DNA from: Bolinopsis microptera
Taxonomy: Eukaryota; Ctenophora; Tentaculata; Lobata; Bolinopsidae
Direction of reading: 5' to 3'
NCBI RefSeq assembly: GCF_026151205.1
Contig: NC_087083.1
Span: forward strand, 2,172,501-2,236,500
Length of the DNA stretch: 64,000 nucleotides
The notes beneath the pieces are model-generated. The model made no database searches, was not told the DNA's origin, and saw nothing but the letters and a program-made list of their open reading frames with translations. Position numbers and translations under genes: made by a program. Positions 18,013 to 59,864 of the stretch are shown here, piece after piece; the first letter of the stretch is position 1; each line of letters opens with the position of its first letter.

Positions 18013-18494
18013 GTCGTCGACCGGAAATCCTCAATTTAACAACGCTGGCAGAGCGGCGAATACGTGGGGACCTCATTGAATATTTTAAAATGATAAGTGG
18101 TTTGGCCAATTACGGAGCTGGTTTGTTCAGTATGAGCAGATCTGGTCTTAATGTGGTATCAAACAGTAGATGCAGTAAAAGTAGCAGTAAAATGAAGAAA
18201 GTCCACAGTTCTTTTCTTCCGGAGAGGGTGAGACCATATTGGAACAAACTCCCCTCGGATGTCAAGAATTGTGGGACAGTATCAAGTTTTAAAATAAGAT
18301 TAGAGGCTTTTAAAAAAAAGACTATTTTAAACGGATCTGTAAATGATAGTCATTTTTGGTATGTTTCGGACGAAGTATTAGGAAAGATTGACAAAAATGT
18401 ATTGAAATGGATATCATCTGCAGTTTTTAAATACAGTATCATATATTGTTGTCCTAATGTTTTTCTCAAAATCTCAATTAAATTGTTTAAATAG
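18012..18494 (+). pseudogene. LINE ORF2 C-terminal tail
   Basis: An open frame encodes RRPEILNLTTLAERRIRGDL, then a variable region, then SSFLPERVRPYWNKLPSDV and FKIRLEAFKKK. The sequence LNLxTLxxRRxRGDLIE followed by a W-N-x-L-P block is the standard end of CR1/jockey-type LINE ORF2 proteins. The RT domain is absent. The fragment ends about 20 bp upstream of the acceptor-like site in front of the HECTD1 start codon, so it lies in the promoter-proximal or 5' UTR intron region of that gene. Confidence 0.65.
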
Positions 18495-18516
18495 AAAGTG
18501 TTGATTTCCTAATCAG

Positions 18517-21500
18517 ATGGGTGATGTTGACCCTGACATGCTCCTTGAATGGCTGGAAATGGGCCAGGGTGACGTCAGGGACATGCAGCTCATTGCTCTG
18601 GAACAGCTCTGCATGCTCCTGCTTATGAGCGACAACATAGATCAATGCTTTGAGAGGTATGTGATTGTAACTTAGATTTTTAGCCATGTACTTAATGTAC
18701 TTAATGTACTTAATGTACTTAATGTACTTAATGTACCTACTGTACATGTACTTAATGCCATGTACACTTAATGTACATGCTTTTTTATGATGATTCCAAT
18801 GATTTTTAATCATAAAACTCTATCTCAACTTGGATTATCATTTACTCACAGTTTTTATTTACAGCTGTCCCCCAAGAACCTTCCTCCCAGCTCTATGCAC
18901 CATCTTCATGGATGAATCTGCTCCAGAAAACATTCTAGAAGCCACTGCAAGAGCAATGAGATTTTATCTAGATGTCAGCGCTGAGGTTAGTGTAGGCAAA
19001 AACAGATGTAGCTTAGGCCTTAGTTTCAGCAGTCAGTAGTTCAGTAATGCAGGAAAAATAGAAAATTGTCCATTAATGATGTTGAACTTCAGTGTTTCAA
19101 CATCATATATCTTGAAAGTGTCTCACTTATTTACTTAAAACCTCATGTAACTCCTTCACCCATCTTATCTGTGATGTCCTAACTACCAGCTAACTATTTA
19201 CCAGTGCACAAGAAGGATAGTGTCAGTTGACGGAGCTGTAAAGGCTCTGTGTGACAGACTCAGTAAGAGGAGCGATACTAGAACCGGTAAAGACCTCTCT
19301 GAGCAATGTATCAAGGTAAATACTTTGTAAATTACCATATCTTGTGGAAGCACGCAAGTTATATAATAACAATTATTTTACTTAGGTGTTTATATAATAA
19401 CAAGAGAATGGAATTATTTTACTTCTTTACAAAATGTCTTATCATGTGCATTATTTCAAGCCCAAATGTTTTACTGCAAAATTAAGAATCACACAGTTCT
19501 CTCCATTCCGCCTAATAATCCATCTTATAATCAACATTGCCTCCCAGGTGCTAGAATTCATGGTGACAAGAGAGGCGGGTCTGATATTCCATCTTATAAT
19601 GAACATTGCCTCCCAGGTGCTAGAATTCATGGTGACAAGAGAGGCGGGTCTGATATTCCATCTTATAATGAACATTGCCTCCCAGGTGCTAGAATTCATG
19701 GTGACAAGAGAGGCGGGTCTGATATTCCATCTTATAATCAACATTGCCTCCCAGGTGCTAGAATTCATGGTGACAAAAGAGGCGGGTCTGATATTCCATC
19801 TTATAATGAACATTGCCTCCCAGGTGCTAGAATTCATGGTGACAAGAGAGGCGGGTCTGATATTCCATCTTATAATCAACATTGCCTCCCAGGTGCTAGA
19901 ATTCATGGTGACAAGAGAGGCGGGTCTGATATTCCATCTTATAATCAACATTGCCTCCCAGGTGCTAGAATTCATGGTGACAAGAGAGGCGGGTCTGATA
20001 TTCCATCTTATAATCTAAACTGCGAAAGTCGTTCCTATCCATAAAGGTGGTTCAAAATTGGAAGTAGCTAATTATAGGCCGATCTCTCTTTTGGGATCAT
20101 TCTCGAAAATTTATGAGAAACTTATGCATGCTCGTGTTTTAGAATTTTTAGATAAGAACGATTCTCTTTTCGAAAATCAATACGGATTTCGGCCAGGAAG
20201 ATCGTGCGAACATGCACTGCTCAATGCCCAAAATTCCATACTACACTCTCTGAATAAGAAACAAATTTCCCTACTGCTCCTGCTCGATTACAGTAAAGCC
20301 TTTGACGTGCTTGATCATGAGACCTTGCTTAAGAAGCTTGACCATTATGGGATCAGGGGAGTCGCGCACGAATGGTTTAGATCTTACCTTTGTAATCGAT
20401 CTCAATACGTAACTTTAAACGGAACTTGCTCTTCTAGCATGCCCATAGTTTACGGCGTACCTCAGGGTAGCATTTTAGGACCTCTCTTATTTGTAATTTA
20501 TATAAACGACCTACCTGGAATTAGTGATTTTGCAAAGTTCATCCTTTATGCCGACGACGCAAACATATTAATTAGTGGAACCACCCTAGAAGAAATACAA
20601 TTAAAAGCTAATCAGCTAATTTCACGTCTTGTAGATTGGGTAGGTGTTAATGGGCTATCTTTAAATGTAAAAAAGACGTGTTACATGATTTTCACTAGAA
20701 AAAGAATCGACTTCAGCGGCTTTAATTTGTCCATTGACAACACTGTAATCGAACGTAAGACTGAAGCAAGATTTTTAGGAGTGATCCTAGACGAAAAGCT
20801 CACTTGGCAAAAACACATTACGGCCGTTAGAATAAAGATGGGTCGCTACCTCGGAGTTATGTATAAGCTAAAGCACCTTCTACCTATCAAAGCCCGCCTA
20901 AACATTTTCCAAAGCCTTATACAATCCCATCTAAATTTCTGTTCTTTAGTGTGGGGATTTGCCTCAAAATGTCACATTGAATCTCTGTTCACCAAGCAAA
21001 AGCAGGGAATTAGAGCTGTTATGTCAGGATATGTAAATTATAGATATAAAGACGGCAATCCCCCGGAGCACACAAAAAGTGCGTTTAGATTGCATAATAT
21101 CCTAACAGTCCATAGCGTCATTGTAAAAAACGCTCTTATTCTACTACACAAAGTAAGGAACATGCCAAGCCTTCTCCCTAAATCCATCAAAGAACTTTTC
21201 CCTCACGATATTCCCACCTATAATTCCACATTCGAACATAACCTTTCTTGGTTCACAACTTACAACGGCCCAACATTTAGAAATACTCTTTTCTTCAAAG
21301 GACCCATGCTCTCTATTACAAAACAAAGTAAAGATATAACTATTCCAAGTTCTACCTTTTCAATTGAAATCTTTAAAAATTCAGCTAAGGGCGAACTCCT
21401 CAAGCTGCAAAGCTCAGGAGACGATGAAAATTGGCCAAATTTCTTACTTTATAGTATACCTGGGCTAAGAAAGTCTCAAAGAGAAGGTCGCTCGCAAATA

Positions 21501-24500
21501 GACTACAGCACCGAGTTAGTAAGCGACAACGCGTAAAGAAAGATCACTCGCGTCAAATGACTATGATCTGTTATCAACAACATATCATTTTAATTTCACT
21601 GCCATTATGCAATGCCGAATTTACATCTGCCGCGCAAAACTTTTTATCTATTACTATTAAATAGTAATTAGCATGTTTACAAATTGCGACTTCAACCAGT
21701 TTTGCAGACCGTTAGTTATATAGTACTTTTAGTAGGGCATTTATTTTAATATATTTATTTTACATTATTATATTTTAGTGTGACTTCTATAATTTTATTT
21801 ATGTAATAACCATTGATCAATAAATTGCGGCACACGCCAACCTCCACCGTGGGGTTTCAAAACCAGGTGCTAGAATTCATGGTGACAAGAGAGGCGGGTC
21901 TGATATTCCATCTTATAATCAACATTGCCTCCCAGGTGCTAGAATTCATGGTGACAAGAGAGGCGGGTCTGATATTCCATCTTATAATCAACATTGCCTC
22001 CCAGGTGCTAGAATTCATGGTGACAAGAGAGGCGGGTCTGATATTCCATCTTATAATCAACATTGCCTCCCAGGTGCTAGAATTCATGGTGACAAAAGAG
22101 GCGGGTCTGATATTCCATCTTATAATCAACATTGCCTCCCAGGTGCTAGAATTCATGGTGACAAGAGAGGCGGGTCTGATATTCCATCTTATAATCAACA
22201 TTGCCTCCCAGGTGCTAGAATTCATGGTGACAAGAGAGGCGGGTCTGATATTCCATCTTATAATCAACATTGCCTCCCAGGTGCTAGAATTCATGGTGAC
22301 AAGAGAGGCGGGTCTGATATTCCATCTTATAATCAACATTGCCTCCCAGGTGCTAGAATTCATGGTGACAAGAGAGGCGGGTCTGATATTCCATCTTATA
22401 ATCAACATTGCCTCCCAGGTGCTAGAATTCATGGTGACAAGAGAGGCGGGTCTGATATTCCATCTTATAATCAACATTGCCTCCCAGGTGCTAGAATTCA
22501 TGGTGACAAGAGAGGCGGGTCTGATATTCCATCTTATAATCAACATTGCCTCCCAGGTGCTAGAATTCATGGTGACAAGAGAGGCGGGTCTGATATTCCA
22601 TCTTATAATCAACATTGCCTCCCAGGTGCTAGAATTCATGGTGACAAGAGAGGCGGGTCTGATATTCCATCTTATAATCAACATTGCCTCCCAGGTGCTA
22701 GAATTCATGGTGACAAGAGAGGCGGGTCTGATATTCCATCTTATAATCAACATTGCCTCCCAGGTGCTAGAATTCATGGTGACAAGAGAGGCGGGTCTGA
22801 TATTCCATCTTATAATCAACATTGCCTCCCAGGTGCTAGAATTCATGGTGACAAGAGAGGCGGGTCTGATATTCCATCTTATAATCAACATTGCCTCCCA
22901 GGTGCTAGAATTCATGGTGACAAGAGAGGCGGGTCTGATATTCCATCTTATAATCAACATTGCCTCCCAGGTGCTAGAATTCATGGTGACAAGAGAGGCG
23001 GGTCTGATATTCCATCTTATAATCAACATTGCCTCCCAGGTGCTAGAATTCATGGTGACAAGAGAGGCGGGTCTGATATTCCATCTTATAATCAACATTG
23101 CCTCCCAGGTGCTAGAATTCATGGTGACAAGAGAGGCGGGTCTGATATTCCATCTTATAATCAACATTGCCTCCCAGGTGCTAGAATTCATGGTGACAAG
23201 AGAGGCGGGTCTGATATTCCAAGCTGGAGGACTACCGGCTATCCTGAGTTTCATATCAGATAACCAGTCAACTACTCACAAGGACATACTTCACTCTGCC
23301 ATGGCGGTATGTGTAAAATATGTGTAAAATATGTGTAAAATATGTGTAAAATATGTGTAAAATATGTGTAAAATATGTGTAAAATATGTGTAAAATATGT
23401 GTAAAATACAGTGTTGCGTGTTGGTTAGATATCACAGGCCACTTATATTATGTGGTGATCCATTGGGGGGGGAATACGAAAGTACATAATTAAGTTATGA
23501 TCAAAATCAATATCTTACATTTTGGCTGTAACATAAAATATTGAACTCTGTTACTATAATATAAAAAATAACAACATTTATCGTATTTCCCACCAGGTGG
23601 TCAGCAAACTTTGTACTAAATGTGAGCCAACAGATGAGACACTGCCCGAGTGTGTAGTTACACTCTCTACACTCCTTGATCACAGTGATAACCAGGTTTG
23701 TCCTTAATACTGATATTGATTTTTTTCATGCTTTACCTTAATACATATTTTAAGACAAATGTAAGGACTATAACAGGAGTATCTTACCCCCAGGTATCAG
23801 ACGGGTCACTAAGATGTTTTGCGTCTCTCTCTGACCGCTTCACTAGAAAGAACATAGACCCCGCACCTATTGGACATCACGGACTGGTAGAGAACCTGTT
23901 GAGCAGGTTGACGATAGCGTTACCCAGTACCTTCACTCCTACTAGGAACAACGCTGCGGGAAACAGACCTCAAACTACTAATAGTCAGACTCCTAGCGAG
24001 GGTAACAGCCCTATTTTAACAGCCCTATTTTAACAGCCCTATTTTAACAGCCCTATTAAGATAATGCTGTGCATGTTTTGTGTACTGATTATTCTAGTTT
24101 CTATAAATTATGAAACATTGACGATGTCGATATTAGCTCAATAATGTAACTAATAGTGACATAACATTTGACTGCTCAGCATACCATAAAGTGTTACCAC
24201 TTAAGTTAAGACTTCTTAAACTGACAATATCACACGCTCCCAGGTACAGTAAGCATGGTGATATCACTGCTAACAGCTCTGTGTAGAGGGAGTGACAGTA
24301 TCACTAACAAACTACTTTCCCAGGTACAGTAAGCATGGTGATATCACTGCTAACAGCTCTGTGTAGAGGGAGTGACAGTATCACTAACAAACTACTTTCC
24401 CAGGTACAGTAAGCATGGTGATATCACTGCTAACAGCTCTGTGTCGAGGGAGTGACAGTATCACTAACAAACTACTTTCCCAGGTACAGTAAGCATGGTG

Positions 24501-27500
24501 ATATCACTGCTAACAGCTCTGTGTAGAGGGAGTGACAGTATCACTAACAAACTACTTTCCCAGGTACAGTAAGCATGGTGATATCACTGCTAACAGCTCT
24601 GTGTCGAGGGAGTGACAGTATCACTAACAAACTACTTCACAGTAATCTAGCTGAGGCTCTTACCTCTGCTCTCATGGCTAACGAGAGGTAGTTATTTACA
24701 TTTGTTCTTGATCTAAGATTAGAGAGAGGATGCCTCTAGATATTATATTATCTTGTTAAGAATTAACAATTATTATCTTGATAGAAAGAGGATGCCTCTA
24801 GATATTATATTATCTTGTTAAGAATTAACAATTATTATCTTGATAGAAAGAGGATGCCTCTAGATATATATTATCTTTACAATTATTGTCCAATCTCAAT
24901 AATTCTAATTGACAACACTTTATTAAACTAAAATTAACAACTAATTAATGTACATGCTGTAATGCTGTATGATCTACAGATGTGTTTTGGACACCATGAG
25001 GTTTATAGACCTCTTACTACTGCTGATGTTTGAGGGGCGCAGTGCACTGCCACGTACTAATCAACCTACTGTTTCCTCCTCTAACCACGGTAACGACTCA
25101 GCTAATCACAAGCAACTTATAGACAGGATCAGGAGCAAGGACTCTAACGGCCTCATTGAGCTCATGGAGAGTGGTAGGTTATAATTATTATTTATAATAT
25201 TATTTATAATTATAACTTAAAGTTTAATGTTTTTTACAGGCTCTAATGATGTAGTTTTACGAAGATTTCAAGCCTTACGTTGTGTGTTTCTCTTCGTTTC
25301 CAAAAGCATTATATATATGTATATGTGTATATATATATTTCGTTTTTAACTCTGGCTTACAAATCTGGATTGTGGTAGGAACCATATATTTTGTCCTCAC
25401 ACATAAAAGGTGATTAACTATAGAAAAGTAAGCTTACGGCGCCATACAATAATATAATTTAGTATAAATTTACTATTTTCACAATATATTCGTGATAAAC
25501 CGAACCTGGTGCTCAATATTGTCTGGATGTATAAACTTAAAAAACTCTTAAATTATACCAGGGAGCTACGACGTAAACTTTATGGACGACGTGGGACAAA
25601 CTCTGTTGAACTGGGCAAGTGCGTTTGGGACTCTGACTATGGTGGAGTATTTGGTGAAAAGAGGGGCTGATGTTAACAGAGGACAGAGGTCCTCCAGTCT
25701 CCACTACACCGCCTGTTTTGGTAGGTTGTTTGTGATCCCCCCCCCCCCCGCCCGGCCGGCCCCCTAGACTTTTTTTCAATCATATATCCATTCATAAAAG
25801 CGATTATTATATTGTAGAAGATACCGTTAAAGAGGACCGGCATTTGACCTCCCTAAGAGTGTCTTAAAAACATGTGACTGCCTTATATTCAATTCTTACA
25901 ATTTCTACTGGACTTTTTAAAACATTGTCTCTGTAGGGAGGCCAGCAATTGCTAAAGCCTTGCTAAGAAGTGGAGCTAATCCTGACCTAAGAGATGAGGA
26001 TGGAAAGACGCCGTTGGACCGGGCGCGTGAGAAGAACGACGAGGGTCATCGCGAGGTGGTACACATCCTACAGAACCCCGGTAAATTGCACATAATATTA
26101 TATTATATCCTTTAAGTTTGTGTTTTTTATTTCTGTGGAAAGTTGAAAAAATCAGTGCAGGTGATCCAAAATTGGAGAGTTTGTTATCCTACATTGCAGG
26201 TGAGTGGATGATGAATGAAGCGAGCGGGGAAGGAAGTGGCAGTGCCACTGCCACATTACCTCCAAAACAAGAACCCATCCCGGCGGAGGAGGAGGAGGTC
26301 CCCGAGGAAGATGCGGAGGAGACTCAAGCACCCTGGGTACGAGACGACGAACTGATTGTAAAATACCTGAAATACTGGATTCCTCAGTTCACTGATATCT
26401 TCCAGAACACCCTTTACACCAGGTTCACATTTCAGATCGTTTTTATTCTCCTGAGTAAAAGTGTAAGAAATCATGTAAGAGTGTTATCTACATTAAACTG
26501 TACTAGACAACAAGATACATTATAATTTGATAACGAGTAGATCTACTCATCTACTCAGTGTAATCTACATTATTATTTATGGTAATATTATCTAGTTATC
26601 TACATTATCAAGTTGTATCTAGGTGTCCTGTATCTTTGTTACATTGTGCATGGATAATGATTGTTCTTATCTACTGTACTTGTAGACATGATAATATCAG
26701 CTGATGAGATTTAAATATATCCAGTGTTTGTAAAGATCATCATAGTAGTATCTAAGCTACTGTACCATGTACATACTACCATAGGTTTTAAAAGTTGATT
26801 ACTAATAAAGGTGAATATTGTGAGGGATCGTTGACATATATTACGCCTTGGGGAGTTGGGGAGTGAGTTTGAAAAAACAAGTTTAATTTTTACACAATAG
26901 CTGTTTGTGAAGGAAGGGGGTTTAAAATTGTCAACAAATTCTCTACATAATGTATACATATATGTGTACTATTCCTATCTTATTAATGTTAAATAACACA
27001 ACGTCTCAGTGTAAAGAAGAGTGCGCTGACCCTACTACGGAAAATAGTCCGGTACACTACACTCAACATTGTTCAGACACTCTGTGAAGAAGGGGCTCCC
27101 TACAGCGCCCAGATTGTGGAGACCATTGCTTACGTGCTGGAGGTAGGTTCCGTGAGTTGTTGGAATATTTGGAATATTTGGAATATTTGGAATATTTGGA
27201 GGATTGCCAGCAGGATGTTGTTAGAAATAGTTTGATAGAAATAGTTTGATAGAGACGTTATTCTTCCTGTTTTTACTGGATATTACTACGTGGTAACTGC
27301 TTAGTGTATTATTACAGCTGACAAAGACTACCTGTGTATCTTGACGCTGTATCTAGATAACTTAATAACTTGTAAATTAATAAAATAAAAGTAATTACAT
27401 TATAACTTTATACATAAGTTAAAACATAATAGCAAGCTTTTACATAAGATACTTTAAATATAACACATGTAGAGAAAGGTATGACAGTGTGATGTCATGT

Positions 27501-30500
27501 TCATTGCAAAGTGTAGCTGTAAAGCATACACCACTAATTGTTACTATACGCTGTACACTAGACCACTATGATACTACTAACAATGTACTTCAACTACAAG
27601 TTAACCATATTACGTTTACTATACATTTAAAAACTTTAAACACGGATAAAAGAAATAATGCCCGGCGGTATTACCAGAGTTATAACAATATATCAGTGAG
27701 TGTAAGAGTGAGTGTAAGAGTGAGTGTAACAGTGAGTGTAACAGTGAGTGTAACAGTAAGTGTAACAGTGAGTGTAACAGCGAGTGTAACAGTGAGTGTA
27801 ACAGTGAGTGTAACAGTGAGTGTTAGAGTGAGTGTAACAGTAAGTGTAACATTAAGTGTAACACACCCCTACACTAGGAGGAGGGAGACGATAACAAAGT
27901 ACCAGCACTCTCCATGGTACGGGATCTGTGCGAGAAGGGAGCAGACCACTTCATGGACCACTTCTGTAGACTGGGAGTCATAAACCACATCAGTAAACGA
28001 GCTAAGATATACTCAGATGAGAAGCTCAAGTCAGATAAGGTACTACTAATCTTTACTAATACTACTACTAATCTTTACTAATATCAGTTGGTGATCAGTT
28101 TCCTGTTATCATTCATTACCAGCTTCCTATTAACCCTCATATAATTTGTAGCCCCAAAATCACGTTCTTTTCATCCTTATTGTTCTGACTCACTATAATA
28201 GTTTAAACTGTTATAAGAAATTCCAAGTGTTTTCCTGGGTAAATTTCTTTTGATCCCGTTTGATGCGACAAGTAGAAGGCTCATATCAGGAGCATTTTCC
28301 TTGGGATCAATACAAATTTACCCAAGAAAACATTTTAACTATGTGACTCATAAATAATATTCCAATCCGGATTTTACATACACATTCCAAGTATAACAAC
28401 TATTTTACAACTATTTGAACAGGAGGATCAGTACATGGAGGACGCAGCGGAAGTACTGCCCTACAGACCCTACCACTGGTGCCAGTGGAGTATACTGCAC
28501 GCTAAGGAATGTATCTATATCTGGTGTGATTACACTGCTATTGCTCTCAGTTCCGGCTCTAACGGCTGGTTTAGGTGGGTTTAATTTGTGGGGATATTTA
28601 TGGGTGGTTTGATTGTGGGGTTATGAATGATTATTGTGTGGTTCATGTGTGGTTTCATTGATTATTTTTTAATGGTGTGGTTTATAAAGTTATTGTCTTG
28701 TTTGGTTTGTATAGTGTCCCACTGTGAGGCTGATCAAGGTGGCATGGTGGACAAACATGACGTTTAAACAAGTACAGATTGTAGTGATACCACGCAATAC
28801 ATAATAATATGTTATACATTAGCAGTACATGATAACATGAAGTAATTTATTTAAAATTGTGTTGTTTCAGTTTTATAATGGACGGCAAGTTATCTACCAT
28901 TTACAGTGCAGGGTGTCTTGACTCTAGCGGCACTGACACTTCAGGTATATAGTAATAGTAATAATAATATGTTTACAGTATGCACTAAAGGGGTATCTTA
29001 GGAAGTTTCTTGAACTTTTAACAGGTACCCCTCCTCACTTAACCCTCAATTAAGTTTCCTATCATTCGTGATTCGGCTGAGTCGACCGAGGAGATCGCAT
29101 AGATCCAACTCCCTAGACTAGATATAAAGGGGGGTATAGTAATGATACTGATACTTCATACTATACCATCTATAATTAACTTGTTATTTAATCAATTAAA
29201 CTAGTTAGTAGTAGTTAATTAATAAAGCTTCAATTACCCGAACTCTACAGATTCCCGCTGTGAGTTCCTGGAGAAGCTACAGAGAGCCAAATGTCAGGTA
29301 GCATCTGATAAACCATCCCAACCCATACTGTCAACTCCTGGTAATACCATTGAGTTGGACAAGTGGCGACTCAAGTGCAGGTTAGTTTATATTGTAGTAT
29401 TGTGTTCATTAAGTGTTATTAGTTAATCAGTAACTCTCATTGTTTGTTTTTTTTTCTTCTCTGCTGGATTAGAATTATACGTTTAAAAATTACATTTATA
29501 TGCTATTCTTGTAATTATATTTATATGATTTCTTGTAACTTTGTAATGATGTAAATCAATATCCTTCTGATTATTAAACAATTTAGCTAATATTAATTGG
29601 TACAACTTATTTTAGGCGTGAAGGAGAACTTGCGATAGATAACGTAGAAGGACAACAGAGCACTGTGCTCCGAGAGGATTTGCCCGGTTTTATATTTGAG
29701 TCCAACAAGGGCGCCACACATTCCTTCAATGCCGAACTTACTTTAGGTCAGATATCATTTATTTACAACTACACACTTCAAACATATTTGTTGATTGAAA
29801 GTAACTTTGTAATGATGTGTCCTGGTTGAGATTGGTTGTACGATGAAAAGTAGCAATTCTTTACTTTAGGAGTGGAGTTTGCTGCTGGATGGGGAAAAAA
29901 GACGTGCAAGGTTAAATCAAAATCGAAGCAACTGCAACAGCAGGTCAGTTAATATAATGATGTAAAATGACAAAGGAGTAACGGGGATGTAGCTCAGCGG
30001 TAGAGCGTGTGCTTTGCATGTACAAGGTCCGGGGTTCGAGACCCCGCATCTCCACTTTTTAAATGCTTTTTATCTTCATCATTTTATTCTCTGCTTGAAT
30101 TGGACAAAGATTGTGTGCATTTTCTTGATAAATATCGATGAAATAATGTGGGACAAATTTGCAATATTAACTGTACGACTAGCAAAAATGCGCGTCTTAT
30201 TCGATTATTTTAGAGATTTTAGCAGCGTTTTTAAGCACACATTTAGAAAACAACTGTAAATCATGGGGCGGCACTTGGAGCATAGGTGCAGCACTTACCT
30301 CTCTACCTTCAATATAGAATTTATAGATTTATCTACGAATTTGTATTTTGGAATTATATGTAAAACACCGATGACCTCAAAGGGGTGGCATGAATTTACT
30401 TAAACAGTGTAACTGAAGAAATGACCTCAGAAATTGGAATTTTCGTAACGCGCGGCCAGTATTTTATTGATGGTATTGCGCTAAATTTGCTGCGCGTTAT

Positions 30501-33500
30501 ATTGCGCGTTTCTCTATTTAGCGAATTAATGATAAACTGCCAGCGTTTCTCATTTGATAAGCAGACATACGATAGTTTTATTATCAAATTGATCAATCAG
30601 TTATGACTCTTCCAACAACGTTCAATGCAAATGTATACCGATCATCACTCCGTTCTATTTCAGATCAATGTTTTATCGGAGGAGATTTACATGACATATT
30701 TCGAGAACAAGATGAATCACATGCGTCCTGTTGTAGCCAAACTGAAAGTGATCCTCAACAACATAGATTCTGCTGTATCGCTTCACAATGACGCTAAATC
30801 GGTATGTTAACCTCCAAAACATCCCATTAGTTATTTTACAAAACTGGACATTTGTGGGAAAGGAGTATAGTACGGTAAATCGGGGGTTTGAGTTTTGAAG
30901 CCCCAGCGGATCAAATGGTTTCTTTCTGCAAAGTACTGGTTCCAAATTATATTAAGTAATGGATAGTTTAAAGAAGTAACGACTAACGAGCCTGACAAGC
31001 TCGTTTGTCAGGCCCATTTATAAGCTGTATTTCAAAGCATCACGAGATATTAAAACTAAATTGAGGGGAAAGGGAAGACGAAAGGTAAATCGTGGTAAAT
31101 CGAGCCACGTAAAATGGGGTTTTTACTGTACATTGATTATTTCCACAACATTTATAACAACTCCTCCCATTAGTTATCAACTGATTAACCCCCCAGGAGA
31201 GTGAATGGAAGCCTCTCCTTTCCTCTTCCTTCAGAAGTTTAGCTGTATTGCTCCACAGTGACACATCCTTATCTACCTTCGAACTTAACTCGTGTGAACT
31301 TGTACCTAGTTTACTACGTGCACTTAGTTACAATGTTAGTGCACTCATTCGAATTATTATTCTGTGTAATTGGGAAATGTTTTTGAGAGTTTTTTTCCTT
31401 TAAACTTTGTTTGAATTTTTGTTTTTGGTGGTAAAATTCGTGAATATTTCTAGATATTAGGTTACGTTAAATTTGAATAACTAATTGTCCAGGACATGAA
31501 GACAGGAGCGTCCTGCAGCAGTGTTAAACAGCAGAATGCTATTAACACTAGTCTACACAAGAGCCAGGAGCGGATAGAAGTGTTTAAAGAGTGCTTCTTG
31601 AACGGGTCCCACGCTCAGGAGTGAGTTGTTATTTAGTTAATTAGTAACTAATTAGTAACTAGTTTAATTAGTAACTAAAGAGTAACTAATCAGTTATTAC
31701 TCTTTTAATTAGTCACTAATTAGTAACTAGTTTAATTAGTTACTAATTAGTAACTAATTAGTTATTACTCTTTAAATTAGTAACTAATTTGTTATTACTC
31801 TTTTAATTATCTGATTAGATTATGATTGTGATCTGCGACAGACTTTTTCACCTCTGCTAAACGTCTTCATGTACCGTCAATATCACGTGACTTTAATTGT
31901 TGATATCACGTGATTTTCAGGGAGATTGCGACTAATCTAGTTAAGAAGTTGGTGTCAGTGATGGAGTCGGTTGAGAACTTACCGTTGTACTTGTACGAGA
32001 GTCCGGGAGCGCTCTATAGCTTGCAGATACTTACAAAACGGTAAGTTACGAGAATCACAGGGAAAATAACATGGTTTTGCAATATTTTGTTCTATGGCTA
32101 TGAATTTGGAATTTGCAGAAATTTTAAAAAGGGTACAAAATGTGCCTTCAAAGAAATTTCCAGGGGGTTTGAAGACGTTTCAATGACTCCATTTTCTACC
32201 CTCCAAAATAGTAACCCCACACTTGAACCGCAGGTTGCGGTTCAGACTAGAGCGGTACGCTGGTGAGCACACCCTGTTGGACCGCAGCGGTAGAACACTC
32301 AAGATAGAGCCCATGACGGCGGTGGGAACCCTCGAGGAGTACCTTCGTAAAAACGTGAGTATTTTGGTTTACAGATCCAACAATTCACGTGAGTGATAAG
32401 ACTGTTTCAGTTTGATTAATCGAAATTGAACGGTTCGTAATATTTAAAAAATCAGATCATTCAGCAACATGTTTAATGTAGTTTGACTCCTCACTTTGCT
32501 CACGTCCGACAATGGTGTTTCTCTTGTCGCTAATATTATAATTTGGCTCAGGTTGCGAAGCAGTGGTTTGACTACGACAGGTCGACCTACAAGTTTATAA
32601 GGGAGGTAAAAGAGGGCGGGTCCCTCAAGTTCACACAAACTTCAGACTTTGACGAGAATGGAATTATATACTGGATTGGAACAAACGGAAAGTGCGTGAG
32701 AACTTTCGTTATGTTTATATTAACAAGTTACCTTAACATGATAACTGGATTTATAGTGTTTATCGTATGATAATATGTATGATTATAGTACACAGCTTGG
32801 AAGCTTCTGGAAGACAATCCCCAGTGGTCGTCCCTTAACTCATACATTACCCTGTTTAGGAGCTCTAAGGAGTGGAAGAACCCCAGCTCTATCAAGGCTG
32901 TGGTGTTATCTTCTTCTGATGGCAGGAACCTGCCTTACGGATCTCTTGGTGAGTTTTATCTTCAATAATATGAACCTAAATTATAGACCATACTGCATTT
33001 AATAAAGTCAGTGTTTTTGGATTGCAAGAATGAACGGCCCGGCATGATGTTTTTCCAGTTTTAGGCGTTTGCAACCATCACGCCATGTTAATGATTTTCT
33101 GTGTTTTTTGTTTTCTAATATTTCAATTGTTCGCATGAATGAGTACCCAATATTACCAATATCTTTCAAACATACAAATACCAATTCCCCACATACCACT
33201 AATACCTCTCTCTCCCAGATGATGTGCTGAGCCGGACATACCACATACCACACATACCACATACCAATCCCCCACATACCACTAATACCTCTCCCTCTCA
33301 GATGATGTGCTGAGCCGGACATACCACATACCACACATACCACATACCAATTCCCCACATACCACTAATACCTCTCCCTCTCAGATGATGTGCTGAGCAG
33401 GACATACCACATACCACATACCACACATACCACATACTAATCCCCCACATACCACTAATACCTCTCCCTCTCAGATGATGTGCTGAGCAGGACATACCAC

Positions 33501-36500
33501 ATACCACACATACCACACATACCACATACTAATCCCCCACATACCACTAATACCTCTCCCTCTCAGATGATGTGCTGAGCCGGACATACCACATACCACA
33601 CATACCACATACCAATTCCCCACATACCACTAATACCTCTCCCTCTCAGATGATGTGCTGAGCAGGACATACCACATACCACATACCACACATACCACAT
33701 ACTAATCCCCCACATACCACTAATACCTCTCCCTTTCAGATGATGTGCTGAGCCGGACGGGAGCTGCTAAGAACGTCCATACTAGCGATGATAAGAACGG
33801 TTGGATCAGTGTGGACCTGGCTATGTGGGTTATACCCTCCCACTACACACTGAGACACAGCCGGGGTTTCGGCAGGTCAGCTCTCAGGAATTGGCTCTTC
33901 CAGGTAGGCACAGTCACGTGCACAGTTAGTGTATCACGTGCACAGTTATTGTATCACGTGCACAGTTAGTGTATCACGTGCACAGTTAGTGTATCACGTG
34001 CACAGTTAGTGTATCACGTGCACAGTTAGTGTATCACGTGCACAGTTAGTGTATCACGTGCACAGTTAGTGTATCACGTGCACAGTTAGTGTATCACGTG
34101 CACAGTTAGTGTATCACGTGCACAGTTAGTGTATCACGTGCACAGTTATTGTATCACGTGCACAGTTAGTGTATCACGTGCACATTTAGTGTATCACGTG
34201 CACAGTTAGTGTATCACGTGCACAGTTAGTGTATCACGTGCACAGTTAGTGTATCACGTGCACAGTTAGTGTATCACGTGCACAGTTAGTGTATCACGTG
34301 CACAGTTATTGTATCACGTGCACAGTTAGTGTATCACGTGCACAGTTAGTGTATCACGTGCACAGTTATTGTATCACGTGCACAGTTAGTGTATCACTTG
34401 CACAATTAGTGTATCACGTGCACAGTTATTGTATCACGTGCACAGTTAGTGTATCACGTGCACAGTTAGTGTATCACGTGCACAGTTAGTGTATCACGTG
34501 CACAGTTAGTGTATCACGTGCACAGTTAGTGTATCACGTGCACAGTTAGTGTATCACGTGCACAGTTAGTGTATCACGTGCACAGTTAGTGTATCACGTG
34601 CACAGTTAGTGTATCACGTGCACAGTTATTGTATCACGTGCACAGTTAGTGTATCACTTGCACAATTAGTGTATCACGTGCACAGTTATTGTATCACGTG
34701 CACAGTTAGTGTATCACGTGCACAGTTAGTGTATCACGTGCACAGTTAGTGTATCATTGTGGCAGTTTTGTTTTTTTTTTTTTTTGTGATTTTAGTTTGA
34801 ACAATAATTTGGCGAAATAAGATTTTTAACGGATGAAGTGGAATCATCGAGTTCATTCTGAACAGGTGTCGAAGGACAGTAAAGCTTGGGTAACCTTGAG
34901 ATCACATTCCGATGACACGGCTCTCTCAGAACCTGGTTCTACTGCAACCTGGGAAATGGAACCGCCTCCCGATGAGAAACAGGTACAAACAAACAAACAA
35001 TAAAATTATCAGCCGAACGAATACTCATATAGAGTTAGTCTTACGTACTGTTTATATGCTTGTACATTTGTTTGTCTGTACGCTTGTGTGTAACACTGTT
35101 CATTTCATCAGGGTTGGAGACATATGAGAGTACACGTGAACGGTAAAAACGCTAGCGGTCACTCTCACTACCTCTCAGTGTCCGGTACTTATTTTATTTT
35201 GTTATTATTTTCAGGGACTAATTTAAAAACAATCGAGTATTTTATCAATTCTAAAATCTGTAATTTACCTTAATGTATGTTAAAAAATCGAGCTTCTTTG
35301 TTTTAAACTGATTACAAAACTACAAATACCAGGTGTAGCTAGTCCACACCCTAGCTCTATAATAATAATATGTAGAATTTGTCTCACTTTTAGATACAAA
35401 TCTCTAATAACACCATAATTACCAGTCTGATTGTAACAGATTCGAACCCCCAGAATTCCAGTCTCACATTACTACCAGACTAAACCCACTCAGTACATTA
35501 AACAGTGTACATTATACATGAATACATTATACATGTTAATAACAGCAGTACATTATATATGTAATTAGTAATTAGTGATAATTAACCAGGTTTTGAAGTG
35601 TACGGTACAATAACGGCAGTACATTATATATGCAATTAGTAATTAGTGATAATTAACCAGGTTTTGAAGTGTACGGTACAATAACGGCTGTGTGCGACGA
35701 CCCACCAATAGAACTCCTCCCCACCAAACCTCCTCCTCTCATGATGGGAGCTGATAAGGTGCTCAAGAGATTAAATAGGGATTCAGATAGTCTGATGTGT
35801 AGACAGAGACTCAGGATATATCGCAAACAGGTGAGGGGTTTTTATCACATTCTTTACAATACCTACTTTTACTTATTCCTTTTGTTATATCAAAGAGCTC
35901 ACACCGTATACAGTTAAAGTGTTGTTTATTTACCGTTTACCGTGTAATGATATGATAATAAACCCAGTTCCGCCGTTTTTAACTGTTAAACTAGTAATAT
36001 TCTAACTAATATCGTACTATTTTACGAAGACGGCCGCACAAGTGCTCCGAAACCTGGGTTCCAGGCCGAGTAGAGTGGACTGGAAGGCTCTTCAGAGTGA
36101 TACTGAGAGTATTAAGAGTTGCAGCAGCACTGGTACAGGTGATTAGTGATTAGTGATTAGTAATTAGTGATTAGTGATTAATAACTAATATGTAATTAGT
36201 GATTAGTGATTAATAACTAATATGTAATTAGTGATTAGTGATTAATAACTTTATTATTTCTAAAGTAATAGATAATTGAGATCTTAATTATAGATAATTG
36301 ATCTTAACTCCATCAGCCGAAATGATAGGGAGGGAATAAGTCATCACTTCTAAGTTACTAGATATAACAGATATCCCGAATATGATGTTAAACTTTACCC
36401 ATCACCTCTAAGTTACTAGATATAACAGATATCCCGAATATGATGTTAAACTTACCCATTGTGTCAGGAGAAGGAGTACCAGGCACACCTGACTCAACAG

Positions 36501-44563: not shown

Positions 44564-45005
44564 CTGATTTGTTAGCTAATTAATTAGCTAATTGATTAAT
44601 GCGATTTGAGTTTTTCGTTCTGTTGACTGAAGCTTGTCTGTAATTTTGAGCTTTCATAATTTGAACAGCCTGAAGCTGTATTTAAATTTTGTATTTAATT
44701 GACCATTGGGGATTGGGGCATCGGAAATTATTTATATGGGCATTTTAGATGTGCAATGTAATCATAGATTTCATTATATACTTTCTTGATAAGAATACCA
44801 AGTTTTTTTTCCATTTTTTGCCGCTGAGGTTTAATTTAATATCAATTGCTTGTTTGTTAAAATGGATCACACAACTATCCTCCTGATGATCGAATACGGA
44901 TTTCTTTGTTAAGACGAAAACATTTTTGATTAGATTTAATCACTCTGATTGCTTGCCATCCGAAACAGCTGTTAATTGTTAAGCTTGAATTTTTACGTAC
45001 TTTGA

Positions 45006-45011
45006 AATAAA
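45006..45011 (+). promoter_or_regulatory. possible HECTD1 polyadenylation signal
   Basis: AATAAA lies 443 bp after the HECTD1 stop codon, with a T/GT-rich stretch (TGTTGTGTATGATTG) downstream. The 3' UTR would then end before the convergent gene's stop at 45359. Other AATAAA-like sequences are present at about 45165, so the site is not certain. Confidence 0.45.
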
Positions 45012-45358
45012 ATGTTGTGTATGATTGTATTTAAAATTCTTAGAAAACACAAAAATTTACCCGAGTCTTATTTAGATCTAGTGGTGCCATACCCCAGAGG
45101 TAGGCAAAGCATCCACATGCTATCCTCTCGTGGGCCAACCAGGCCCAGCCTCTCTTTAAAAAATAAAATAAAATAAGAAAGTGGTGACGGGGGCCGGGGG
45201 ACACATGAAAATAATGCTTTGAGATAACTGTAAGCATAAACATACTTTAAAAGCAATCAACATACTATTACTATGTAGTTTATTGATATTAACGATCAAC
45301 GCATCAAAACATACAACACCACGTGTCTACTGTCTATCTCCAAAAAAGAGCCTTTTAT

Positions 45359-54300: not shown

Positions 54301-57300
54301 TGCCAAATCTGTGTTCAGAACGCCAAGGCGTTTGACAAAGTGGATCTCAACATTCTTCTAGCTAAAGCCAAACGCTACGGTATCACGGGCAAAACTCTAC
54401 AGTGGCTTGCTGAGTTTTTAAAGAATCGCCTGCAGACAGTGGTCGTCGAAGGAGAAAAGTCGTCCTTCCAGATTGTGATAAGTGGTGTCCCACAGGGAAC
54501 TGTGTTAGGTCCAATCTTGTTTATTCTGTATATAGATGACCAACTGGACACGTTATTAACTGCTCTTGGAAAGGTCTTTGCTGATGACACGAAGCTTATA
54601 AGCAAAATTACTGATTTAGTAGCAAGGTGTTTGCTTCAAGAAGATCTGTTTAATGTCATCAAATGGGCCCTGCAAAATAACATGCAGCTAAACGAAACCA
54701 AATTTGAAGTTATCAACTACAAGCTGAATAAATCCCTGCTATTGAGAGAACTCCCCTTCTCCAACGAAGACTACAGCTATAGCTCAACAAACGGGGAAAT
54801 TATCGAACCAACGCAAACAGTCAAAGACCTTGGAGTACTCCTCTCAAATGACTGCTCATGGACGCCCCATATCCATCAGATGCTGAAAACTGCTAAGAAA
54901 ATGGCATCGTGGGTCTTCAGTGTCTTCAGTGACAGATCACCTTTCCTGATGCTCACCCTTTTCAAAACAATGGTGAGGAGCAGGCTAGAATGCTGTTGCC
55001 CGGTCTGGAACCCCAGCAAAATCACCGATATAGAGGCAATCGAAAATGTTCAGAGGAACTACACTCGCCGTATCTTAGGTTGTCAGCAATTGGACTATTG
55101 GGACCGTCTTAAGAAGCTGGACCTGCTCTCCCTGCAGAGGCGGAGAGAGCGATACATCCTGATCCATACATGGAAGATGGCAAACGACCTTGCTCCAAAT
55201 GACATCAACATGGTATTCAAGGAAAACGCTCGACATGGCATAAAAGCCATAGTCCCACCACTGAACAACAAATCGCAACGATCAGTCGCCACTCATTACG
55301 AAAATTCCTTTCGAGTGAATGCAGCGAGACTATGGAACCTCCTCCCACGACAAGTGAACAGTTTAACTGCTCTAGGACCCTTCAAGATATCACTTGCTCG
55401 ATTTTTGGAGACGTTTCCCGATACCCCGCCAACCAAAGGATACACCGCCATCACCAACAACTCACTCCTGGAATGAAATCTACAGAAAGATCTGAACCAG
55501 GAATGAATGGAGGACGTACTAGTTACTGTTGTCCAGAAGCAATCCCTGCCAAACCAACCTAAAGTACCTAAAGTAAGTATATTTGAAAATGGGACAGAAT
55601 TTTGAAAATACAACTTTTTGTTTTGTTAAGCTTTCTGCTGTGGGCTTCCTCCGACTTCAATCAGACTTCCAGCACCTCAATCGTGTCATTTGCCATCTAT
55701 ATAGTTGACTTACTAATTGGTTGCGGGTGAAAAAATCAGTCAAAACTGTAAAATTTCGGTCCTGGAATTTTCATCTTCAAAAACTGAAAATGGGACAGAA
55801 ATTGGGGACAATATGATTTTGCAAATTTATTCGGAATTTTAACTCCCAGTACCTCAATTTGGTTTTAAACCATCATCAATTAACTGACTAATTGGTCCAT
55901 GGGCAAAAAGTCCATCCAATCTGCCAAATTTGTGTTCAGAAAATTTCATATTTGAAAATGGGACAGAATTTTGAAAATACAACTTTTCGTTTTGTTAAGC
56001 TTTCTGCTGTTGGCTATCTCCGACCGAAATCAGACTCGCAGCACCTCAATCATGTCATTTGCAATCTATAGTTGACTAACTAATTGGTTGCGGGTGATAA
56101 AATCAGTCAAAACTGTAAAATTTCGGTCCTAGAAATTTCATCTTCAAAAACTGAAAATGGGACAGAGATTGGGACAATATGATTTTGCAATTTTATTCGG
56201 GATTTTGACTCCCAGTACCTCAATTCGGTTTCATACCATCATCAATTTACTGACTCTTTGGTCTGTGGGCAAAAATTCCATCCAATCTGCCAAATTTGTG
56301 TTTTCAGATTTTCATACTTGAAAATGGAACAGAAATTAGAAAATACGAATTTTTGTTTTGTTAAAGTGTTAAGCTATCTGAAAACAATTTCTCTAGCATC
56401 AGTCCAAATTCTATCGAATCATGCCTCTAACAGTAACAGCCTCTTATTCTTATGAGCTTCAAGTGCCTGGTATGATCTTTGTGCTTTGGCTAGCCTGGTA
56501 TTTGTAATTAATAAACATTTTAGGATGTCCATGAATTTAGTTACATATGTAATTGTAATTCGAAGACCAAAAGGTTAGGTTTCCCACTTACTCTATAAAA
56601 GTATACCTTAATTCCCAAAAATTTGGGTGACAAAAAATTTGAGCGGGCCTCTCGCCCAAATTTTTTGCAGACCAAATAAATTGCATAAATCTTTTCCGTC
56701 TGCTAAATTTTTTGCTAACCAAACTTTTGGCATTTAGCCTGTGGCCCTGAGATCTATAGAAAGATGGCTTTTTCTTCATATCCAAGTGAAATAATATTTG
56801 AAATTTTAGTTTTCTAATCTGTCATTCATGGCTTAACCAAGTGAATCGACAGATTTCACTAAAAATGAACGATTTTTAGTGGAAAATCGTTCATTTTTCG
56901 AAGAATTTGTGCCCAAATTTTTGGTCGCCCAAATGAGTTCAAATTTTCTGCCCAAATTTTTCGGGCTCAAATAAATTGTGCTCAATATAATGGCACACAA
57001 ATTTTTGGGAACTAAGGTATATCACATTTTAATTAATACTTACAGTCGAATAGTGAGGATTGTTGACAGGAGAAATGTATTCTGTTGATGTCATTGAAAG
57101 TGTCTTTGTAGGAAACAGATACGCAAGTATCCTCGTTAACCTGAAATATTTTTAGGAGGACTGTCACAAACTTGAGAAATTTGTTAGTATTTGCTACATG
57201 TTGCACAATATCTGATATGATCCCTTTTGCCGGCTGTTAAAAGGCCATCGCGCAAAAAATAAATGTTGTAAAAACTAACAATGTATTCTATTTTCATGAT

Positions 57301-59864
57301 TAGAGTACAGAATAAAGATTGTATTTGTAGGAATAGGTTAAAACTATATAACCGGGTGTAAAACTTACAGCCGAAAAAAAAAGAAGAAAAAAAAGGAACT
57401 GAAAACTAACCTTGCATTCCGCAAGAGGGCAGGATTCCACGATCACCGTGCCTCCTCCAACCAGTTTAACATACCTCGTCCTACCCCCACTGGTTTCTTT
57501 GTAACAGGAATCGTAACAAATCAAACCGCCCGGGTTCTGCTCGGCTGTGGGAAATATTACAAATATTCATGTGTGTGACGTATGATCGTCCATTAAGATC
57601 AGGAGCGTCTAAAATCCGGATTATTTATGAGTCGCATTGTTGAAATGTTTTTTTGGGTAAATTTCTATTGATCCCGTTTGATGCGACAAGGCCAGGAAAA
57701 GGTTTTTTCCTTGTCGCATCAAACGGGATCAATAGAAATTTACCCAAGAAAACATTAAAAAAGGAGCGTGTTCATTATACTTAACTAATAATTAAAGTTT
57801 GATCTCAGATGAATAAGAAGGACTATAATTAATAATTAATAAAGGATTGAGAACGATCAAAATAAGATAAATAACTGCAAACACTTGGGCTTACTATAAA
57901 GATAAGGTAGTTATAATTAAATAAGTTATAATTAAATAAGTTATAATTAAATAAGTTATAATTAAATAAGTTATAATTAAACAAGTTATAATTAAACAAG
58001 TTACAATTAAATAAGTTATAATTAAATAAGCTATAATTAAATAAATTATAATTAAATAAGTTATAATTAAATAAGTTATAATACTAATAGGGCTAGACTC
58101 TTCATTACAGTTCACGTACCAGCTTCGTTACTATTCACACAGGTGTTAGGAAGGGCAAGCGTCTTGAAAGTGGCTGTGCAAGTCAATATCAAGTGTGTGA
58201 ACTCGGTCTTAACCACGGTGTGATCTGTAACATACTTTATTATAACTAATTAATTAATTAAAGTACGCTCATTAAATAACTAATTAATTAATTTAAGTAT
58301 TAGCTAATTAGGTTCTACTTATATATTAGTATTACTCGGTCTTAACCACGGTGTGATCTGTAACATACGGATAACAGTTTTACAATTATGGGTAAATTAT
58401 AACTCTGCAACTTTACAATTTATGAGAAAGATTAGGGGTCGTTTACATATCACGTAATCAATTTAGTAATAATCACCGTCGTCAATACACTGCAGGATAA
58501 TTTGATCCCCGGCGACAACTCTATTTCCAGCGTCCAACAAGGAATTTGTTTCAACCATCTCGTAGTAAGACTGCACTGTAGCAGGGATCTCACACACATC
58601 TGTGAAAGAGAGAGAGACTTAAAGTTAAGGGGAAAATCAAAACCAATTTAGTGATTATAATTACATCTCTAATTATTTTGAGATGGACGTTACAAAGGGT
58701 TCTGATTTTAAGAAGAAATGGTCGAGGGGGTTGAGTTTGGATTGATATGTAACAAAATGTATGCGGCAGGAAATACTATAAAGTACAATATTATGTATAA
58801 TGAACACCTCCGCTGTGCGGGGGGGGGGGGGGGGGGGGGGGGGGGGGTGGGGCACAATCTTAGGGGGGCGTACTATAACGTACAATAGGCTAACGTGTCC
58901 GCAAGCAATAAAAAGTACAATATTATGTATAATGAACAACTCCAGATGAGTCCATGCTGTACCACGTGGGACACCACGTGGTTTGTGACGTCACAAGATG
59001 ACCCACCTACACATAGATCCACACTATTGCTGCCAGTATCAGTGGTATTCTTATCTCCCGGGCATGGTGTGCAATCTACATTAGCTTTCGTGTCGGAGTA
59101 AGTGTTCAGTGGACATATCAGGCACTGCTGGATGCTGGTGTCCGCGTATAACCTGGGGTTAATACCACGTGTTAGAGAGGTGAGATAGCATGCTCCTTCA
59201 TAATATTTTGCATCATTTCTCAAAAAAGTCACACTTTCTGAGGTACACCATGCAGATTCTATATGCTATCGTTGGCAACCCAGGTCCAACCTCTCTCTAG
59301 AATGGAGCTGTGAAACTAGAGTAATGTGAGATATTGAAAGTAAACTTACCCTGCTAGAATGGAGCTGTGAAACTAGAGTAATGTGAGATATTGAAAGTAA
59401 ACTTACCCTGCTAGAATGGAGCTGTGAAACTAGAGTAATGTGAGATATTGAAAGTAAACTTACCCCGCTAGAATGAAGCTGTAAAACTAGAGTAATGTGA
59501 GATATTGAAAGTAAACTTACCCTGCTAGAATGGAGCTGTGAAACTAGAGTAATGTGAGATATTGAAAGTAAACTTACCCTGCTAGAATGGAGCTGTGAAA
59601 CTAGAGTAATGTGAGATATTGAAAGTAAACTTACCCCGCTAGAATGAAGCTGTAAAACTAGAGTAATGTGAGATATTGAAAGTAAACTTACCCCGCATAA
59701 CACTCCTGGCAGGTAGTATCTATGTTGGGAACCTGCCCCGGGTCACACCCTTTACTCGACACATCCTCCACATCTGCGTTTTCGAAATCACTCTCGTCGA
59801 ACTGTGAGCTGATTGACACGAGGAGGGCCACGAGGACGAACCAATAGTTTAGTTGCTTTTGCAT
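45359..59864 (-). CDS. secreted cysteine-rich, probably GPI-anchored protein, 8 exons, 319 residues
   Basis: Exons in transcript order: 59864-59692, 59152-59007, 58599-58477, 58224-58120, 57544-57411, 57140-57044, 45793-45720, 45466-45359. All junctions are GT-AG, phases match, and the total is 960 nt. Residues 1 to about 20 (MQKQLNYWFVLVALLVSISS) form a signal peptide. Residues about 40-106 form a GCC2/GCC3 (ephrin-receptor-like) cysteine module: CDPGQ...CQECYAGLYAD, CLICPLNTYSDTK, CTPCPGDKNTT. Later exons each carry Cys pairs (LILTCTATF, CYDSCYKETSGG, CPLAECK, CVSVSYKDTFNDINRIHFSC, CKVQRCKTE), and the C-terminus GLPVTLLILVSSTLLNLF is a hydrophobic tail like a GPI-attachment signal after a Ser-rich stretch. 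Intron 6 is 11.25 kb and holds the satellite. I do not recognise an orthologue. The reconstruction is mine, from splice signals and phase. A TTTATT (AATAAA on minus) overlaps the stop region. Confidence 0.75.
46030..56405. repeat. ~367-bp satellite array, about 25 units, intronic
   Basis: A unit of about 367 bp recurs from about 46.03 to 56.40 kb. It is recognisable by GGGCAAAAAGTCCATCCAAT, TTTGAAAATGGGACAGAATT, AATACAACTTTTTGTTTTGT, CTTCCAGCACCTCAATCGTG and GTAAAATTTCGGTCCTGGAA. Landmarks at 46572 and 54280 are 21 units apart. Neighbouring units alternate between TTGGTTTTATACCATC and TCGGTTTCATACCCTC types. Shared rare variants 1,469 bp apart show four-unit block duplications. The outermost units are more diverged and share an edge form (GTTAAGCTATCTGA..CAATTTCTCTAGCA). 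The array lies inside intron 6 of the minus-strand secreted-protein gene and is non-coding. Confidence 0.95.
54321..55577 (+). mobile_element. 5'-truncated LINE inserted into the satellite
   Basis: The insertion begins in the RT motif A region (AKAFDKVDLN) and continues with GVPQGTVLGPILFILYIDDQ, VFADDTKLISK, QTVKDLGVLLSNDCSWTPHI, RSRLECCCPVWNPSK and a C-terminal VNAARLWNLLPRQV, to a stop at 55476. About 100 bp of 3' sequence ends in TAAAGTACCTAAAGTAAG. The frame is intact for 385 codons. Satellite sequence stops at TGTGTTCAGAA and resumes at ATATTTGAAAATGGG, so 6-7 bp of the unit are missing: a small target-site deletion. CR1-like by motif style. It differs from the LINE at 20016. Confidence 0.85.
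56605..57017. mobile_element. ~413-bp MITE with 23-bp inverted ends
   Basis: The left end (TATACCTTAATTCCCAAAAA) and the right end (inverse TATACCTTAGTTCCCAAAAA) differ at one position over the first 20 bases and continue as AATTTG. TA borders suggest a TA-target (Tc1/mariner-like) insertion. The interior is rich in CCCAAATTTTTTG and its complement, so it can fold extensively. The right end is 27 bp from exon 6 of the minus-strand gene. Confidence 0.6.
57609..57761 (-). mobile_element. ~153-bp foldback MITE, copy 2
   Basis: Flanked by an exact 8-bp duplication AGGAGCGT (57601-57608 and 57762-57769). Inside, 48-bp arms (57644-57691 and the inverse at 57709-57756) with one mismatch contain TTGATCCCGTTTGATGCGAC. 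This gives a near-perfect hairpin. The segment CTAAAATCCGGATTATTTATGA at its left matches the right side of the copy at 28228-28383, which is in opposite orientation. Confidence 0.85.
57894..58082. repeat. 15-bp AT-rich minisatellite
   Basis: About twelve copies of ATAAGTTATAATTAA with few variants, in the intron before exon 5 of the minus-strand gene, ending about 38 bp from the exon 4 donor. Confidence 0.85.
58200..58371 (-). repeat. duplicated exon 4 acceptor of the minus-strand gene
   Basis: A segment of about 35 bp (ACTCGGTCTTAACCACGGTG plus TGATCTGTAACATAC on the plus strand) occurs at exon 4 and again 133 bp upstream in transcript terms. Exon-like starts are at 58224 (used, in phase) and 58357. 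The copy contains the acceptor and the first 24 or so exon bases. Confidence 0.85.
58781..58940. repeat. duplicated ~30-bp segment around a poly-G tract
   Basis: AAAGTACAATATTATGTATA followed by ATGAACAMCTCC occurs at 58781 and 58911, separated by a run of about 30 G (58819-58847). It lies in the intron after exon 2 of the minus-strand gene. G-run length may be unreliable in the assembly. Confidence 0.7.
59278..59696 (-). repeat. 57-bp minisatellite carrying the exon 1 donor, 7 copies
   Basis: Plus-strand landmarks TAAACTTACCC lie at 59341, 59398, 59455, 59512, 59569, 59626 and 59683, an exact 57-bp period. On the minus strand each unit contains GC(G/A)GGGTAAGTTTAC, that is the strong donor GTAAGT in its exon-like context. 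The copy nearest the coding exon (59691) is the working donor by phase. The other six are downstream in the intron. Read-through past the real donor hits TAA at once. There are two unit subtypes (GGAGCTGTGAAAC and GAAGCTGTAAAAC). Confidence 0.93.

Follow-up and report, generated by a model that had tools for sequence, protein, structure and literature searches.

The DNA analysed here (hereafter the window) is a 64,000-nucleotide stretch of the genome of the ctenophore Bolinopsis microptera. Positions below refer to the window unless a locus label precedes them. Two genes were modelled in it:

18517..44563, plus strand: HECTD1 orthologue, 44 coding exons, 2702 aa, 43 introns, all GT-AG (manual model, homologues, HECT domain)
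57044..59864, minus strand: neighbour gene, first six modelled exons, the gene running on further (open model, GT-AG introns)

The 44 exons of HECTD1 were placed by hand and gave a stop-free translation with a HECT domain at its C-terminus. The N-terminal region is 74% identical to eukprot sb/3463913, a label which we take to stand for the ctenophore Pleurobrachia bachei, and 60-63% identical to three other aligned proteins. The start of exon 34 is uncertain in the model. An acceptor-like site is found at about 38670 (window 38670-38806), and the frame opened there soon meets a stop; the model uses a poor-looking acceptor at 38795 instead. An alternative exon would explain the segment 38670-38806, as would a frame change in the assembly.

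Tandem arrays span splice junctions in both genes. Copy counts and spacings of these acceptor and donor arrays were determined by exact search, and arrays were also called with Tandem Repeats Finder (TRF):

19515..20015, plus strand: exon 4 acceptor array, first block, 69 bp x 7 (TRF and exact search)
20019..21536, plus strand: reverse-transcriptase ORF within the exon 4 array (Pfam RVT_1, E 2e-34)
21863..23221, plus strand: exon 4 acceptor array, second block, 69 bp x 20, last acceptor 23177/23178 (TRF and exact search)
24238..24637, plus strand: exon 7 acceptor array, 80 bp x 5, functional acceptor 24563/24564 (TRF and exact search)
33170..33758, plus strand: exon 26 acceptor array, 83-92 bp x 7, functional acceptor 33739/33740 (TRF and exact search)
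35538..35688, plus strand: exon 29 acceptor array, 71 bp x 2, functional acceptor 35660/35661 (TRF and exact search)
58200..58364 (extent approximate), minus strand: doubled exon 4 acceptor of the neighbour gene, exon starts 58357 and 58224 (exact search)
59297..59693, minus strand: exon 1 donor array of the neighbour gene, 57 bp x 7, functional donor the first copy, 59692 (TRF, model and exact search)

A sequence-only reading had listed four multiplied HECTD1 acceptors (exon 4, 27 copies of 69 bp; exon 7, five of 80 bp; exon 26, seven of 83-92 bp; exon 29, two of 71 bp) and, in the minus-strand gene, an exon 1 donor present seven times at 57 bp and an exon 4 acceptor present twice. The exact search returned all of these. 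The total of 27 acceptors for exon 4 is correct, but the array is interrupted by the reverse-transcriptase ORF, which splits it into 7 and 20 copies. The doubled acceptor of the minus-strand gene was absent from the TRF output and was found by exact search. TRF match values were 97-99% for exons 4, 7 and 29 and for the minus-strand donor, and 88-94% for exon 26. The unit of exon 7 consists of 6 nt of intron and 74 nt of exon. Since it contains just six intron bases, what immediately precedes the working acceptor is copied exon sequence.

The product of every array copy was translated, with the doubled minus-strand acceptor left out. Premature stops followed from each earlier acceptor of exon 7 (4/4), exon 26 (6/6) and exon 29 (1/1), and all six later copies of the minus-strand donor led to premature stops as well. 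At exon 4, the seven copies before the insert also led to stops, and the 19 other copies after the insert keep the frame open, adding 23 aa per unit. The earlier claim that the last acceptor copy is the functional one by phase therefore holds for exons 7, 26 and 29 but not for exon 4. Where the four aligned homologues cover the exon 3/4 and 6/7 joins, they show no such insertion, with P0126 and P0212 covering the first join incompletely. For exon 4, it is homologue continuity alone that points to the last copy as the functional one.

Predicted acceptor scores were 8.4-9.0 for the exon 4 copies (1.0 for the first copy after the insert), 10.7 for the exon 7 copies (7.2 for the first copy), 7.3-7.9 for exon 26, where the functional copy was the lowest at 6.6, and 3.5 for both copies of exon 29. 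Splice signals are retained in the copies, as 26 of the 27 exon 4 acceptors and all those of exon 7 (5/5) and exon 26 (7/7) score between 6.6 and 10.7. Since predicted strength does not mark out the used copy, the choice of copy is probably positional. Together with the stops and the homologues, this would be in line with exon definition, that is, with use of the copy giving the shortest exon. Unit length (TRF period) was not divisible by three in five of the seven acceptor-spanning arrays of all genes tested (see below). Non-triplet unit lengths and the stops from other copies imply that those copies cannot routinely be used. The stops and the homologues thus suggest that a single copy is used and that regular splicing is undisturbed.

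In HECTD1, further arrays lie inside introns with one edge close to a splice site (offset in bp in brackets), and these are called flush arrays here:

23308..23408, plus strand: donor-flush array after exon 4 (+2), 11 bp x 9
24003..24057, plus strand: donor-flush array after exon 6 (+2), 14 bp x 4
25179..25210, plus strand: donor-flush array after exon 8 (+6)
27160..27200, plus strand: donor-flush array after exon 12 (+18)
27694..27863, plus strand: acceptor-flush array before exon 13 (-15), 12 bp x 14
28041..28083, plus strand: donor-flush array after exon 13 (+2)
31637..31818, plus strand: donor-flush array after exon 21 (+17)
33914..34756, plus strand: donor-flush array after exon 26 (+11), 20 bp x 42, CACGTG in the unit
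36139..36250, plus strand: donor-flush array after exon 30 (+7)
36342..36459, plus strand: acceptor-flush array before exon 31 (-9), 58 bp x 2
41243..41291, plus strand: donor-flush array after exon 37 (+1), 10 bp x 4.6
41428..41538, plus strand: acceptor-flush array before exon 38 (-4), 37 bp x 3

The minisatellites previously reported at the donors of exons 4, 6, 12, 21, 26, 30 and 37 are all present and start 1-18 bp past the donor. Exons 8 and 13 likewise have donor-side arrays, in addition to those seven.

The position of arrays relative to splice junctions was then analyzed in 94 introns (52,764 bp) of four genes: HECTD1 (43 introns), the minus-strand neighbour (5), the dynein-1 heavy chain (33) and CAND1 (13). 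For dynein and CAND1, exons were predicted with a small gene finder that had been trained on genes of the window and that recovers 40 of the 44 HECTD1 exons, part of its own training set. Solved cytoplasmic dynein-1 and CAND1 chains were aligned to these predictions to check the exon order. These two genes were chosen for their well-scoring exons, after arrays near exons had been noticed in loci L027 and L023, and loci L031-L035 were added afterwards. Between true dynein exons, the finder also called ten exons that could not be placed in the dynein alignments (five in the intron at 21596-28613 and five within 14407-19707 of the joined stretch); these were dropped. The intron preceding dynein exon 5903-6069, an exon whose start is doubtful, was omitted here and kept in the unit-sharing test described below. 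Gaps occur in the alignment of the final CAND1 exon used (8291-8372), whose intron is array-free. An EGF-type gene in L023, which is without homologue support, was left out of the counts; an array of 105 bp x 40 (L023:2862-7109) lies over its predicted donor. For flush edges, the expectation was derived from uniform placement within the same intron (100,000 permutations), and for spanning arrays from founders placed at random outside exons.

The 94 introns contained 86 array-intron overlaps, and 78 arrays lay inside introns. Of the edges of intronic arrays, 33 were no more than 20 bp from a junction, against 10.9 expected, an approximately 3-fold excess (p = 1e-5, the permutation floor); with TRF run on the other strand, the numbers were 34 and 10.8. 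The excess was found at donors (19 vs 5.45) and at acceptors (14 vs 5.46, p = 4e-4). By gene, 12 edges against 3.7 expected were found in HECTD1 and 21 against 6.2 in dynein. CAND1 and the neighbour gene, with few arrays in both, had no flush edges (0 vs 0.8 with five internal arrays, and 0 vs 0.2 with two arrays, respectively); dynein and CAND1 pooled gave 21 against 7.0, every edge being from dynein. The excess was retained among arrays with a score of at least 150 (12 vs 3.2), among those with a period of at least 10 and complex units (18 vs 5.8) and in introns with a single array (18 vs 8.0), and it persisted in short and in long introns. In successive 20-bp steps from the junction, the ratio of observed to expected edges was 3.0, 0.8, 0.5, 0.3, 0.0, 1.0 and 0.7. 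A positional bias of array edges is thus supported in two of the four genes, HECTD1 and dynein.

The spanning arrays gave a different picture from the flush edges. With periods of at least 20, eight of 45 arrays spanned a junction on the gene strand, against 5.9 expected (p = 0.23), and 10 of 47 with TRF on the other strand, against 6.3 (p = 0.08). With periods of at least 30, the numbers were 8 of 25 against 4.5 (p = 0.06) on the gene strand and 9 of 25 (p = 0.03) on the other. The junction-spanning arrays are therefore at most weakly in excess, and as stand-alone evidence of bias they were rejected on the p values of 0.23 and 0.08. On the gene strand, seven of the spanning arrays in the four genes lie over acceptors and one over a donor. 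Dynein heavy chain acceptors carry arrays of 58 bp x 19 (L035:7729-8798) and 199 bp x 4 (L035:4595-5380), and a dynein heavy chain donor carries one of 143 bp x 2 (L035:1641-1921). This second donor array, with a 143-bp shift and 89% identity over 46 exon bases and more, is one of the two further arrays that count as spanning on the other strand; direct comparison also shows it as spanning, but TRF on the gene strand does not.

We also surveyed 19 arbitrarily placed ten-kb loci (L009-L030 without L023, L026 and L027) using predicted exons. No edge peak was found in these loci; at the loosest thresholds the profile was flat, with two edges within 20 bp at 154 junctions and three donor-spanning arrays, the exon calls being partly false (81 exons called against 31 in a reversed-sequence control, probably with transposon ORFs among them). 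Stricter thresholds (56 and 30 exons) left zero edges at 1-10 bp and at most one at 11-20 bp. Since this survey had no peak, our claim is limited to the genes tested.

Structures of this kind have been described in amphioxus. Two papers report 'mirages' in Adh3, in the globins BflGb6 and BflGb9 and in PGBD5: minisatellite-like tandem duplications over an exon-intron boundary, on its 5' or 3' side. Many of the copies contain splice signals, and the way in which they are generated is described as unclear (PMC3087553, PMC3902484). Regular splicing was apparently undisturbed according to globin RT-PCR and Adh3 data (PMC3087553, PMC3902484). As in amphioxus, the B. microptera units span the boundary (eight arrays in four genes, with a ninth on the other strand), both boundary types are involved (acceptors of HECTD1, dynein and CAND1; donors of the minus-strand gene and dynein), and the copies retain splice signals as judged by predicted scores. 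The spanning arrays have the structural features of amphioxus mirages. Unlike the amphioxus cases, the host is a ctenophore rather than a cephalochordate, up to 27 copies occur, one array is split by a reverse-transcriptase insert, and a much larger number of arrays are flush inside introns and do not reach over the junction, their excess having been measured in the tested genes.

Intron gain by tandem duplication at AG/GT proto-splice sites, which is named in PMC3087553, similarly multiplies splice signals. Tandem repeats make up 13% of the Hormiphora genome (PMC8527503). B. microptera is likewise a repeat-rich ctenophore, with 19% of the 324 kb examined in tandem arrays. What sets ordinary intronic minisatellites apart is that, to our knowledge, no link to splice sites is expected of them. 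Among the open-licence papers searched, no title dealt with minisatellite enrichment at ctenophore splice sites. The flush arrays and their measured excess are thus an extension of the mirage kind, for which we found no precedent in that literature.

We consider it about an even chance that the arrays are ctenophore 'mirages' and their close kin, that is, minisatellites with position-biased birth that are tolerated through exon definition. A short tandem duplication would arise on or next to a splice junction and would then be expanded and homogenised; it might be produced by slippage between the splice signal and a similar sequence nearby, or by end joining of the two. Extra copies would be nearly neutral if exon definition reads the copy giving the shortest exon, namely the last acceptor or the first donor, and arrays inside exons would be purged by selection. 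Junctions would be a more frequent birthplace of duplications than the rest of the intron, and some units may have been copied from intron to intron within a gene. Of the elements of this explanation, tolerance has the better support and biased birth is the least certain step; spread between introns is a live rival. Selective tolerance had already been proposed from the sequence, and the counts agree with it: three arrays lay wholly in 15.8 kb of exons, against the 86 array-intron overlaps in 52.8 kb of introns.

The same counts could be produced by random minisatellite birth followed by purifying selection only, in which exonic founders are lost and junction-spanning ones survive as a full exon remains. 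The near-expected number of spanning arrays and the weak 19-locus survey without a peak are also consistent with this explanation. It leaves unexplained, however, the threefold excess of intronic edges within 20 bp, which is also found when dynein is taken by itself, and we consider it unlikely. The earlier argument that the arrays are hard to attribute to random minisatellite birth is accordingly upheld by the flush edges, again in dynein, a gene that was not part of the sequence-only reading, but not by the spanning arrays, which are at most weakly in excess.

A further alternative is that units spread among the introns of one gene or neighbourhood, by gene conversion, template switching or as a small mobile repeat, and settle at intron ends. 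Intron pairs with at least six complex 8-mers in common belonged to the same gene in 22 of 24 cases, against 9.0 expected from label shuffling (p = 5e-5, the floor of 20,000 shuffles). The excess was also seen with at least four common 8-mers (37/58 vs 21.7, p = 6e-4) and with at least eight (15/16 vs 6.0). In dynein, with introns numbered from the first available exon, the CTATATTTCA family recurs in introns 23, 27 and 30 and the GGTTACTA family at the donors of introns 9, 11 and 18. Since such sharing does not follow from independent births, it counts against position-biased birth, our best explanation. Regional base composition could, however, account for part of the excess. At the loosest cut (at least one common 8-mer), sharing was about equal between genes (143 of 2022 pairs) and within genes (134 of 1609). 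A common orientation of the shared units was sought and not found, the orientation being mixed, and four genes only were compared. Among the array units of these genes, two of the 24 strongly sharing pairs joined different genes; an introner-like feature would be near-identical sequence at many unlinked genes. We regard spread as quite unlikely to be the main origin of the arrays.

It is also conceivable, at a low probability, that DNA change in this animal is directed by its splice junctions. Some process linked to transcription or splicing, such as copying via RNA-DNA hybrids or via spliced or partly spliced transcripts, would seed duplications at intron ends and would also carry units from one intron to another within a gene, and the introns would in this way be rebuilt from their ends.

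The arrays might instead be kept by selection as splicing or regulatory elements, providing an extra branch point, pyrimidine tract or donor, or transcription-factor sites by the exon. Their flush position at both intron ends and the splice signals in the copies are compatible with such a role, as is the over-representation of CACGTG, which occurs in the units of 13 of 208 arrays against 2.2 expected, a count in which one array cut in two (L027/L031) is included twice and two L029 arrays have the same unit. The CACGTG arrays are those at window 33914-34756 and in L011, L016, L027, L029, L031 and L032. Acceptor-flush units, however, were not richer in pyrimidines than distant ones (0.57 vs 0.54, p = 0.27), the units are very diverse, and the copy number of flush arrays varies from 2 to 58. 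We therefore consider a regulatory role improbable.

An assembly artefact, either false array expansion or split haplotypes joined in tandem, is very improbable, since junction-spanning units were found in four genes from three parts of the genome and the PacBio reads for this species are presumably longer than the spanning arrays. PacBio CLR and HiFi libraries were made for B. microptera and two sponge species (PMC10232365).

With this result, splice-junction repeats are known from comb jellies as well as from lancelets, two lineages far apart in the animal tree. Their occurrence in both means that the phenomenon is very old or has more than one origin. The genes studied here are natural test genes for splicing. 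As many as 27 near-identical acceptors are in competition, of which a homologue-like product requires the last, so that acceptor choice and exon definition are directly measurable. If the flush excess were genome-wide, the position of minisatellite birth or survival would be tied to splice sites, unlike in random slippage.

Several minor features were also observed. Direct repeats at the ends of founders were seen by eye. A tRNA-Ala (TGC) gene is located at 29983-30055 in HECTD1 intron 18, on the same strand as HECTD1. Intron 31 contains a 301-aa ORF (36689-37594) that looks like part of a mobile element and has a sub-threshold Pfam match only (SLX1_C, E 0.007); past this ORF, a segment resembling the exon 31 donor was seen by eye again near 37911. 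A 367-bp satellite of 22 copies occupies 46208-54320, and a reverse-transcriptase ORF at 54286-55476 adjoins it.
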